This document shows positions 48,851-51,469 of a stretch of DNA of 64,000 nucleotides, piece after piece. How positions within the stretch are numbered: position 1 is the first letter of the stretch; the number at the start of each line of letters is the position of its first letter. A model generated the notes under the pieces. That model was not told the origin of the DNA. It ran no database searches and was given only the letters and a program-made list of their open reading frames with translations. The translations under genes were made by a program, and so were the position numbers. Location: the NCBI RefSeq assembly GCF_003967275.1, contig NZ_AP018721.1:1798001-1862000 (forward strand), in the 5' to 3' direction. Source of the DNA: Sulfuritortus calidifontis. Lineage in GTDB: Bacteria > Pseudomonadota > Gammaproteobacteria > Burkholderiales > Thiobacillaceae.

Positions 48851-51469
48851 CTACCGATCCCGGTAAACCCACCCCCGCCGAATCCCCCACTTCTCCAACT
48901 CCACACCGAAGAACAACACGCTCGACAAGACCAGACAGAAGCCCAGCTCGGCCGCACTGAGCGGCGCGGTCTTGAAGATCGGGTTGAGAACGGGCAGGTA
49001 GAGCGCCGCCATCTGCAAAGCGAAGGTGAGCAGCACGGCGGCCAGCAGCGGCCGGTTCGACAGCGGCCCCTGGCGGAAGAAGCTGTCGCGCTCGGAGCGG
49101 ATGGCCAGCACGTGGCCCATCTGCGACAGGGTCAGCACAGTGAAGACCATGGCCTGCCAGTTCGGGCTGCCGTGGGCGATGGCCCAGGCCTGGGTGAAGA
49201 GACAGACCCCGCCCATGAGCAGGCCGACCCACAGGATATGCAGCCAGAGGCCATGGGCGAAGATGCTTTCCTTGGGATGACGTGGCGGCCGCCGCATGAT
49301 GCCGCGCTCGGCCGGTTCGGCGGCGAGCGCGAGCCCCGGCAGGCCGTCGGTGACCAGATTGATCCAGAGGATGTGGATGGGCAGCAAAGGAATGGGCAGG
49401 CCGATGAAGGGGGCGAGGAAGAGGGTCCAGATCTCGCCCGAGTTGCTGGTCATGGTGTATTTCACGAACTTGCGGATGTTGTCGTAGATGCGCCGGCCCT
49501 GTTTGACCGCGGCGACGATGGTGGCGAAGTTGTCGTCGAGCAGGACCAGGCTGGCCGCCTCGCGCGCGACATCGGTGCCGATCCTGCCCATGGCCACGCC
49601 GATGTCGGCCGCTTTCAGCGCCGGCGCATCGTTCACCCCGTCGCCGGTCATGGCGACGAATTCGCCCCGCTCCTGCAGGGCCTGGACGATGCGGAGCTTC
49701 TGCTCGGGGTCGACCCGGGCGTAGACCCGGATGTCTGCCACCCTGCGCTCGAACTCGGCCGCATCGAGCCGCGCCAGTTCCGGTCCGGTGATCACTTCGC
49801 CATCGCCGTCGAGGATGCCCAGCTCGCGGGCGATGGCTTGGGCGGTGGCCGGATGATCGCCGGTGATCATCACCGGCGTGATGCCAGCACTGCGACAGTC
49901 GAGCACGGCCTGCCGGGCCTCGGGTCGCGGCGGATCCTGCAAGCCGGCGAAGCCGAGGAAGTCGAGATCGCGCTCCAACTCGACCGCATCGAGCGCCGCC
50001 GGCAGCGTCTCCAGCCGCCGCCAGGCAAAGGCCATGACCCGCAGGCCGGCCGCGGCCATCTCCTCGAGCACGGCCTGGGCGTCGGTCGGCAGGCTGCGGC
50101 AGAGCGGCAGCAGGGTTTCCGGTGCGCCTTTTACCAACACGAGAAATCCCCCTCCCTCGCCCTCCCCCGCAAGCGGGGGAGGGTTGGTTTGGGGAAAACG
50201 ATGCGCCGTGCTCATGCGCTTGCGCACCGCGTCGAACGGCAGCTCGGCCACGCGCGGCAGGTCGTGGTCGAGCCGGCGCTTGTCCTGACCCTGCGCCAGC
50301 GCCGCCTGATACAGCGCCAGCTCGGTGGCATCCCCTTGCACCCTGCCATCGGCGCCGAAGCGGCAATCGTTGTTGAGCGCAAGCGCCCGATAGAACGACT
50401 CGGCATCGGCGGCCGGGCGCCAGGTCCGGGCCACCTGCATCCTGTTCTGGGTGAGGGTGCCGGTCTTGTCGGCGCAGATGTAGGTGACCGAGCCCAGGGT
50501 CTCCACCGCGGGCAGCCGGCGGATCAGGGCCTGCTGTCGCACCATGCGCCGGGCACCGAGCGCGAGGGAAATCGTGACCACGGCCGGCAGGGCCTCCGGG
50601 ATGGCGGCCACGGCCAGACTCACGGCAGTCAGGAACATCAGGGTGATGTCGCCGCCGCGCGCGACGCCCGCGGCGAACAACATGGCGCACAGGCCAAGCA
50701 CGCCCCAGGCCAGGCGCCGGCCGAAGTCGGCCAGACGCTTTTGCAGCGGGGTGAGCGGCTCGCCGCCCGAGAGCAAGGCGGCGATACGTCCCAGCTCGGT
50801 GGCCGTGCCGGTCGCCACCACCAGACCCAAACCCCGGCCGTGGCTGACCTGGGTGCCCTTGTAGGCCATGTTGGCGCGCTCGGCCAGGGCGGCCGCCCCG
50901 GGCAAGGCCGCCGACGACTTGTCGACCGGATGCGATTCGCCGGTCAGCGCCGCCTCCTCGCAACGCAAGGCGGCCACCTCGCTCAGGCGCAGATCGGCCG
51001 GTACCACGTTGCCGGCCTCCAGCCGCACCAGATCGCCCGGCACCAGTTCACTCGCATCGAGCACGAGGTCCCGGCCATCGCGAATGACCGAGGCCTGCGG
51101 CGCCGCCATCCGCTTCAATGCCGCCATGGCGCGCTCCGCGCGATATTCCTGGACAAAGCCGATCAGGGCGTTGAGCAGGACGATGACCAGGATGGCGAGT
51201 GCATCGACCGGCTCGCCGGCCAGGCCGGAAACGACCGCGGCCGCGATCAGCACCAGGATCATGAAATCGCTGAACTGGCCCAGCAGCAGGCGCCACGGTC
51301 CGCGCCGGACGGGCTCCGGCAGCCGGTTCGGGCCGTGACGGCGCAGGCGCCGCGCCGCTTCGGCCGAAGTCAGACCGCGCCGGCTGTCGCTTTGCAGGGC
51401 CTCGGCCGTCGCCTCGACGCTGGAACCATGCCAGAGCGGCGTCTCGCCGGGATCAGGCGCCGGGGCCAT
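48851..51469 (-). CDS. P-type cation-transporting ATPase (P2A/P3-like)
   Basis: The 872-aa pump has an N-terminal cation ATPase domain (GLTSAEAARRLRRHGPNRLP), the actuator loop with EEAALTGESHPVDKS, M4 with VAAIPEALPAVVTISLALGA (PEALP, as in SERCA-type and PMA1-related pumps), phosphorylation motif ICADKTGTLTQNRMQ, nucleotide domain VKGAPETLLP, and the hinge MTGDGVNDAPALKAADIGVA. The C-terminus has four hydrophobic helices and the cation ATPase C domain. Ca2+, Mg2+ or monovalent export cannot be separated. At residues about 429-443 a palindromic repeat is translated in frame (PQTNPPPLAGEGEGG) within the N domain. Its start overlaps the MgtE-like gene by 17 nt. Confidence 0.92.
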   Translation of the reverse strand: MAPAPDPGETPLWHGSSVEATAEALQSDSRRGLTSAEAARRLRRHGPNRLPEPVRRGPWRLLLGQFSDFMILVLIAAAVVSGLAGEPVDALAILVIVLLNALIGFVQEYRAERAMAALKRMAAPQASVIRDGRDLVLDASELVPGDLVRLEAGNVVPADLRLSEVAALRCEEAALTGESHPVDKSSAALPGAAALAERANMAYKGTQVSHGRGLGLVVATGTATELGRIAALLSGGEPLTPLQKRLADFGRRLAWGVLGLCAMLFAAGVARGGDITLMFLTAVSLAVAAIPEALPAVVTISLALGARRMVRQQALIRRLPAVETLGSVTYICADKTGTLTQNRMQVARTWRPAADAESFYRALALNNDCRFGADGRVQGDATELALYQAALAQGQDKRRLDHDLPRVAELPFDAVRKRMSTAHRFPQTNPPPLAGEGEGGGFLVLVKGAPETLLPLCRSLPTDAQAVLEEMAAAGLRVMAFAWRRLETLPAALDAVELERDLDFLGFAGLQDPPRPEARQAVLDCRSAGITPVMITGDHPATAQAIARELGILDGDGEVITGPELARLDAAEFERRVADIRVYARVDPEQKLRIVQALQERGEFVAMTGDGVNDAPALKAADIGVAMGRIGTDVAREAASLVLLDDNFATIVAAVKQGRRIYDNIRKFVKYTMTSNSGEIWTLFLAPFIGLPIPLLPIHILWINLVTDGLPGLALAAEPAERGIMRRPPRHPKESIFAHGLWLHILWVGLLMGGVCLFTQAWAIAHGSPNWQAMVFTVLTLSQMGHVLAIRSERDSFFRQGPLSNRPLLAAVLLTFALQMAALYLPVLNPIFKTAPLSAAELGFCLVLSSVLFFGVELEKWGIRRGWVYRDR
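50155..50195 (-). repeat. REP-like palindrome inserted in frame in the ATPase gene
   Basis: CCCTCCCCCGC at 50160-50170 and GCGGGGGAGGG at 50173-50183 are perfect 11-bp arms with a 2-base loop, flanked by a CT-rich run on the left and TTGGTTTGGGG on the right. Translated on the minus strand this gives the low-complexity peptide PQTNPPPLAGEGEGGG between ATPase segments STAHRF and FLVLVKGAPE. The reading frame stays open. Confidence 0.85.

Follow-up and report, generated by a model that had tools for sequence, protein, structure and literature searches.

Probable translated in-frame insertion of a palindromic repeat into a P-type ATPase gene of Sulfuritortus calidifontis, and a proposed role of DUF559 endonucleases in mobilising the repeat family

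The P-type cation ATPase encoded in the stretch of 64,000 nucleotides of the Sulfuritortus calidifontis genome analysed here (the window) almost certainly owes an extra loop in its nucleotide-binding domain to a copy of a dispersed palindromic repeat that is translated in frame. The explanation that best accommodates the observations as a whole, to which a probability of about 0.8 is assigned, is the in-frame insertion of a mobile palindrome, with mobilisation of the repeat family by a DUF559 endonuclease as a proposal for its spread. The initial annotation of this DNA had recognised a REP-like palindrome translated in frame within the ATPase and supplying a Pro/Gly loop adjoining the KGAPE motif, and each of these points is borne out by the 49-bp element with its perfect arms in an intact open reading frame (ORF), by a genome-wide repeat family and by the orthologue alignments. 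It overlooked the wider lead, namely the tie of the palindrome family to DUF559 genes. Coordinates of the features are given in Table 1.

Table 1. Features of the window and of the related loci (coordinates without a locus prefix are those of the window)
Feature	Position	Strand	Basis or remark
P-type cation ATPase, 872 aa, PMR1/SERCA-like	48851..51469	-	ORF; Pfam PF00690, PF00122, PF13246, PF00702, PF00689
Codons 425-441 (FPQTNPPPLAGEGEGGG)	50147..50197	-	In place of the usual four-residue turn (e.g. DGEG)
REP-family element, 49 nt	50147..50195	.	Sequence, hairpin, related genome copies
Palindrome left arm	50160..50170	.	11 bp
Palindrome right arm	50173..50183	.	Perfect complement of left arm
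Sole Y1 (RAYT-type) transposase gene detected in the genome	7359..8090	-	NF047646, 75 bits against a cut-off of 80
YgiQ-nested DUF559	L227:987-1534 and L270:1008-1427		Two other genera of the bacterial family, same place in both
Own-genome DUF559 gene	L180, within 1-1182, near 375 kb		Directly after the end of a replicative-helicase-like gene
Pseudanabaena galeata plasmid module	L325:1873-6246		DUF559 and palindromes in frame in an Eco57I-type methylase ORF, adjoining brxC

The element is built of a left tail (TCCCCCTCCC), TCG, a hairpin with a loop of 2 nt, TT and a right tail (GGTTTGGGGA), and all six reading frames are open across its length. It sits in frame within the ATPase ORF between STAHR and FLVLVKGAPE. 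A search with its 22-base core, allowing up to three mismatches, finds a single occurrence in the window, where 0.01 would be expected. A search of the 2.72-Mb genome with the core pattern, allowing two mismatches, retrieved 86 matches (42 and 44; many hairpins are counted on both strands) against eight (6 and 2) for the reversed pattern used as control, with copies lying both within and between genes. In the genome stretches examined, 65 hairpins are spread over 42 sites, frequently paired or arrayed, and two forms are common, TCCCCCTCCC-nn-CCTCCCCCaca/AGTGGGGGAGG and CCCTCCCCgc/GCGGGGAGGG-tt-GGGGTGGGGA. The window copy consists of one hairpin with two tails, inverted REP pairs being present elsewhere in the genome; as its left tail is that of the first common form and its right tail that of the second, it may represent a collapsed REP pair. 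The pattern was found in 76 of 100 genomes of the bacterial family, with a patchy distribution of 0 to 130 matches per genome.

The ATPase itself is intact and constrained. Its best NCBIfam match is TIGR01522 (PMR1-type calcium ATPase), below the cut-off (658 against 798 bits), and the structural relatives of its model retrieved with Foldseek are SPCA1, LMCA1 and SERCA. Comparison with the orthologue of a related genome (G005) gives a dN of 0.146 and a dS of 0.802, and the two proteins are equidistant from the outgroups, both of which indicate that the gene has not decayed. The stretch from HR to KGAPE comprises 22 residues in the window and nine in the orthologues of G005 and G004 (80% and 82% identical, respectively), and the alignments give a net gain of 13 codons relative to most orthologues. 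The nearest orthologues lack the insert, the empty site being read from species only about 80% identical.

Most of the 31 orthologue loci of the bacterial family have a short turn between the strand that ends in STxHR and VLVKGAPE, and the loop is absent from the closest relatives, as the initial annotation had anticipated. What it had named as refuting, equally long loops of unrelated sequence in orthologues without the palindrome, is seen in part, in three of these 31 loci (L069, L070 and L072), though not in the closest relatives. In a survey of a further 80 loci, the short spacing of 23 was observed in 56 and that of 24 in four, while a spacing of 38 was seen at two loci and spacings of 27, 29 and 46 at one locus each; the pattern mis-anchored a further three (75, 79 and 79), and the 12 loci that could not be parsed are mostly short by eye. 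The equally long, unrelated loops in some orthologues indicate that the turn tolerates differences in length. An AlphaFold2 prediction from 37 sequences places residues 425-441 between two strands (418-424 and 442-448), with pLDDT values below 50 at residues 428-438, and the insert is accordingly modelled as a disordered beta-hairpin turn in the nucleotide-binding domain. The initial annotation had placed the loop close to KGAPE, which we take to be an ATP-site motif. The adjoining position is confirmed; a disturbance of ATP binding need not follow, since the turn is naturally tolerant of length and is modelled as disordered.

This position next to KGAPE could also be read as favouring a selected new function for the loop, in regulation or interaction. 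At this very codon, the ATPase gene of another related genome (G002) harbours, independently, a palindrome that belongs to a different subfamily and runs in the opposite orientation, an observation that would suit such a role; the contig ends inside this palindrome, and the remainder of the gene was not found in the G002 assembly, the best matches there being 38-48% identical. Selection for function is nevertheless improbable, as the region is predicted with low confidence to be disordered, the loops of the orthologues are short or unrelated, and inserts of the same type occur in 12 unrelated proteins. A neutral insert, tolerated as a flexible Pro/Ser/Gly loop, is the probable alternative. In the ATPase of a Nitrospirae metagenome-assembled genome (L139), the same loop holds repeat-like DNA of CCCCGCGT type.

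The ATPase copy, which had seemed an exceptional case, is one of many. Copies of the family lie in frame in 12 other genes of the genome (13 in total), encoding an AddA-like helicase, Mpl, LeuS, TrpC, Tex, HypD, Mfd, HrpA, MutS, MurB, MurD and GshB; the names are based on NCBIfam matches above the cut-off except for two, the AddA-like protein being below the cut-off and Tex being named from its sequence. The sites differ in their occupancy among relatives. The mutS insert is absent from three related genomes (G002, G003 and G004), and both contigs of a fourth (G001) end within the insert; the leuS site is filled only in S. calidifontis (G000) and G005 and is empty in G001-G004; the murD insert is present in S. 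calidifontis alone among five genomes with the gene. In the murD of G003 (L213), the loop that bears the palindrome in S. calidifontis holds repeat-like DNA of CCTCACGC type instead. The presence of other repeat-like DNA in the same murD and ATPase loops points to sites that are generally tolerant. Two further arrangements were noted in S. calidifontis: the glutathione synthase gene gshB (L188:2195-3403) carries four tandem palindrome units in frame, adding about 40 residues, and the AddA-like protein (L177) contains, at residue ~297, a second and different palindromic repeat (SLTPGPSPEGGGG), also in frame.

The choice of reading phase suggests that these peptides are made. Depending on the phase of the palindrome centre, the encoded peptide is SPASGGG-like (phase 0), LPRKRGR-like (phase 1) or PPLAGEG-like (phase 2), and the Lys and Arg content of phase 1 reaches 17%, against 5% and 9% for the others. 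Phase 1 has the fewest stops, with 106 of 118 strand readings open against 96 and 89 in the other two, yet the 20 family hairpins found in the 13 genes of S. calidifontis all avoid it (P 0.005 per gene; 0.003 with weighting for openness). Two phase-1 rows among 22 hairpins, at residue 297 of the AddA-like protein and residue 199 of Mfd, were left out because they are without the family core; a strict-core rule combined with the codon usage of the flanks excludes both by itself, together with the GshB copies. Under this strict rule, 12 of the 37 sites of the genome are in frame, their hairpins being divided between phase 0 (13) and phase 2 (three), with phase 1 unused. A follow-up test in three other genera (G014, G015 and G053) found 10/30, 5/28 and 3/20 sites in frame, respectively (18/78), with phase 1 in only one of 23 in-frame hairpins (P 0.001 with hairpins as the unit, 0.007 with sites and 0.019 with 15 genes). 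Avoidance of the basic phase in spite of its fewest stops argues that the peptides are translated and filtered by what the protein tolerates; we infer that the inserts are made into protein and that only flexible ones survive.

Such a bias would not be expected if the peptide were never made or never mattered, as would be the case if the element worked as RNA (in attenuation or stability) or if the ribosome skipped the palindrome. The mRNA stretch over the palindrome does fold better than shuffled sequences (z -3.5), and bypassed palindromes are reported, in passages of PMC6649704, from a yeast mitochondrion; a search of Rfam with the palindrome region returned zero matches. A role of this kind, with an irrelevant peptide, is therefore given little credence, and translation of the inserts is the preferred reading. 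If so, the in-frame copies constitute a natural experiment on the peptides that proteins tolerate, flexible Pro/Ser/Gly stretches being admitted and basic ones not, and they caution annotators that repeat-encoded loops can occur in core enzymes, MutS, LeuS and Mfd among them.

The closest precedent named in the initial annotation comes from Rickettsia, whose genome is AT-rich. The likeness holds, as the Rickettsia palindromic elements (RPEs) are described, in passages of PMC2229807, PMC10969869 and PMC3767692, as palindromes translated in frame at solvent-exposed places of conserved proteins. The RPEs are about 100-150 bp long and reside in the genome of an intracellular bacterium (same sources), whereas the single copy here is 49 bp long and GC-rich, so that length and composition set the two apart. 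The novelty of in-frame palindromes beyond Rickettsia cannot be maintained, since passages of a 2013 report (PMC3733652) describe in-frame REPs with GTAG and CGTC tags, single or as dimers, from diverse bacteria. The host genes in those passages are conserved, many of them encoding DNA repair proteins, helicases and tRNA synthetases, and different REPs lie near the same recB site in two Xanthomonas. The present inserts are alike in being short palindromes inside conserved genes; the window copy differs in having neither tag at the stem end. In copies of a CTCTCCC subfamily of S. calidifontis (near 128958, 188466, 1558400, 1767548 and 2284952), CGTC directly precedes the stem, as in the published CGTC superfamily. 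The reading-phase bias and the DUF559 partner are features of the present analysis only, as far as the passages of PMC3733652 extend, and the novelty, in-frame REPs being already known from that source, looks to lie in the DUF559 partner.

How REPs spread without a RAYT is an open question, and one candidate mover for the present family is an ordinary RAYT (Y1) transposase according to the REPtron model. Passages of PMC3116915 and PMC2817692 describe REPINs and RAYT REPtrons, in which inverted REP pairs resemble miniature mobile units. One Y1_Tnp gene is indeed present in the genome, within the window, and Y1 and REP counts show a weak positive correlation over the 100 genomes of the bacterial family (rho 0.26, p 0.01). 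REP counts show, however, no difference between genomes with and without Y1 (p 0.21), and no Y1 match was found in eight of the 25 genomes with at least 20 pattern matches, one of these being a single-contig genome with 66 matches. In a REPtron the transposase gene is flanked by REPs of the family; no family palindromes were found beside this Y1 gene, which makes it an unlikely mobiliser. The unflanked gene and the REP-rich genomes devoid of Y1 thus both disfavour a RAYT, and mobilisation by one is considered unlikely.

A different gene is found between the palindromes. The DUF559 protein family is common and has, to our knowledge, been assigned no role, and Pfam lists it as being of unknown function. 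In two other genera of the bacterial family (G014 and G015), a YgiQ-like radical SAM protein contains a whole DUF559 domain in frame, bracketed by palindromes with the core of the window copy. The 3' end of the DUF559 gene of S. calidifontis runs into a palindrome pair of CCCTCTCCCC form, and the gene adjoins a related but different palindrome subfamily, not that of the window. These were the only three DUF559 matches in the sequence examined before the plasmid survey described below, of which about 1.1 Mb had not been selected for REPs. The Pfam model (PF04480) is matched with 138.6 (L227), 142 (L270), 97.2 (L325) and 136.1 bits (L180) against a cut-off of 20.6; D, ExDG and H columns, presumably catalytic, are conserved in all 27 aligned sequences, and the domain matches the PDB entry 3hrl, an 'Endonuclease-Like Protein', at 2e-28.

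For an independent set, 24 of 35 DUF559 records of a plasmid collection, from several phyla, were retrieved; most of the 11 others come from near-duplicate species, and two are Neisseria. A motif palindrome (with a GGGAGG, GGGAGAGG or GGGAGAAGG arm) lies within 400 bp at 15 of the 24 loci, as against five of 94 windows of the same size from the same loci (Fisher 3.6e-9). The choice of motif followed inspection of the first 12 loci; seven of the remaining 12 contain it. By genus, it was found in eight of 13 (Azospirillum, Sphingomonas, Shinella, Deinococcus, Sphingobium, Photobacterium, Sinorhizobium and Pseudanabaena); the nine loci without a motif palindrome within 400 bp include those of Escherichia, Synechocystis, Picosynechococcus, Pseudomonas and Novosphingobium. 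When the left flank was compared with the reverse complement of the right flank, inverted repeats at 14 of the 24 loci outscored each of the 480 shuffles and 24 neighbouring controls, and at the other 10 none exceeded control. The ends of the Deinococcus psychrotolerans module read CCCCCTCCCAG-CCTCCCCC...GGGGGAGG and its inverse, which share their build with the first common form of S. calidifontis. Ends of the Shinella and Pseudanabaena modules seem to resemble the dispersed RIME and C-run palindromes of Rhizobiaceae and cyanobacteria. The literature search, with most subscription papers outside its reach, found nothing that ties DUF559 to palindromes, and no title on this repeat when the palindrome core was used as a search word; among viral contigs, no confirmed relative of DUF559 was found.

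That relatives of the palindrome bracket DUF559 genes in distant bacteria suggests what may move the family, and on the sequence comparisons DUF559, instead of a RAYT, is the slightly favoured candidate for its mobiliser. The arrangement would resemble the REPtrons in placing a single gene, the candidate autonomous partner, between REPs, as far as the cited passages describe them, and differ in that this gene encodes a DUF559 endonuclease in place of a Y1 transposase. In the proposed mechanism, REPs would form the inverted termini of a small unit, REP - DUF559 endonuclease - REP, through which the family spreads, with scattered REPs and REP pairs as nuclease-less derivatives moved in trans. 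The nuclease would act on the hairpins that terminate its own unit and, in trans, on dispersed REPs, and copies would spread through cutting and repair; we infer this nuclease step from the location of the genes alone. The ATPase loop is best explained as a mobile copy of REP/REPIN type that landed in the gene. Copies landing in genes would be purged unless they are in frame, free of stops, flexible and in a surface turn, a filter that is supported, and the ATPase copy probably survived because it preserved the frame, introduced no stop and came to lie in a surface turn that tolerates it.

In its broadest form, for which we see even odds, the proposal holds that the CCTCCCC/CCCTCTCC-type palindromes of Proteobacteria, Deinococcota and Cyanobacteria may be the ends of an unrecognised minimal mobile element whose sole gene is the Vsr-like DUF559, solitary REPs and pairs, the ATPase copy included, being its non-autonomous offspring. 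Since the ends of the element carry few stops, the whole element could also be accommodated in frame within proteins, YgiQ and the Eco57I-type methylase being examples. Should DUF559 be the mobiliser, a single gene family and a single repeat superfamily would account for each other across phyla.

DUF559 genes might instead be passengers that landed in REP-rich spots without moving the REPs. REPs are known targets of other elements, according to passages of PMC1525189; some DUF559 genes are without nearby palindromes, and in Photobacterium the palindrome array reaches well past the gene. In Deinococcus, Sinorhizobium, Sphingobium, Novosphingobium and the cyanobacteria, however, the flanks are mutually inverted, with both hairpin and tail included. 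Complete inverted repeats on both sides argue against passenger insertion, which would split one REP, and passengers are therefore regarded as a less probable explanation than mobilisation by DUF559. The Shinella DUF559 module is missing from the syntenic gap in both of the two Sinorhizobium examined. In three Deinococcus plasmids (L315, L316 and L318), DUF559 occupies different positions of the same hpa aromatic-degradation cluster, as if it had been inserted repeatedly.
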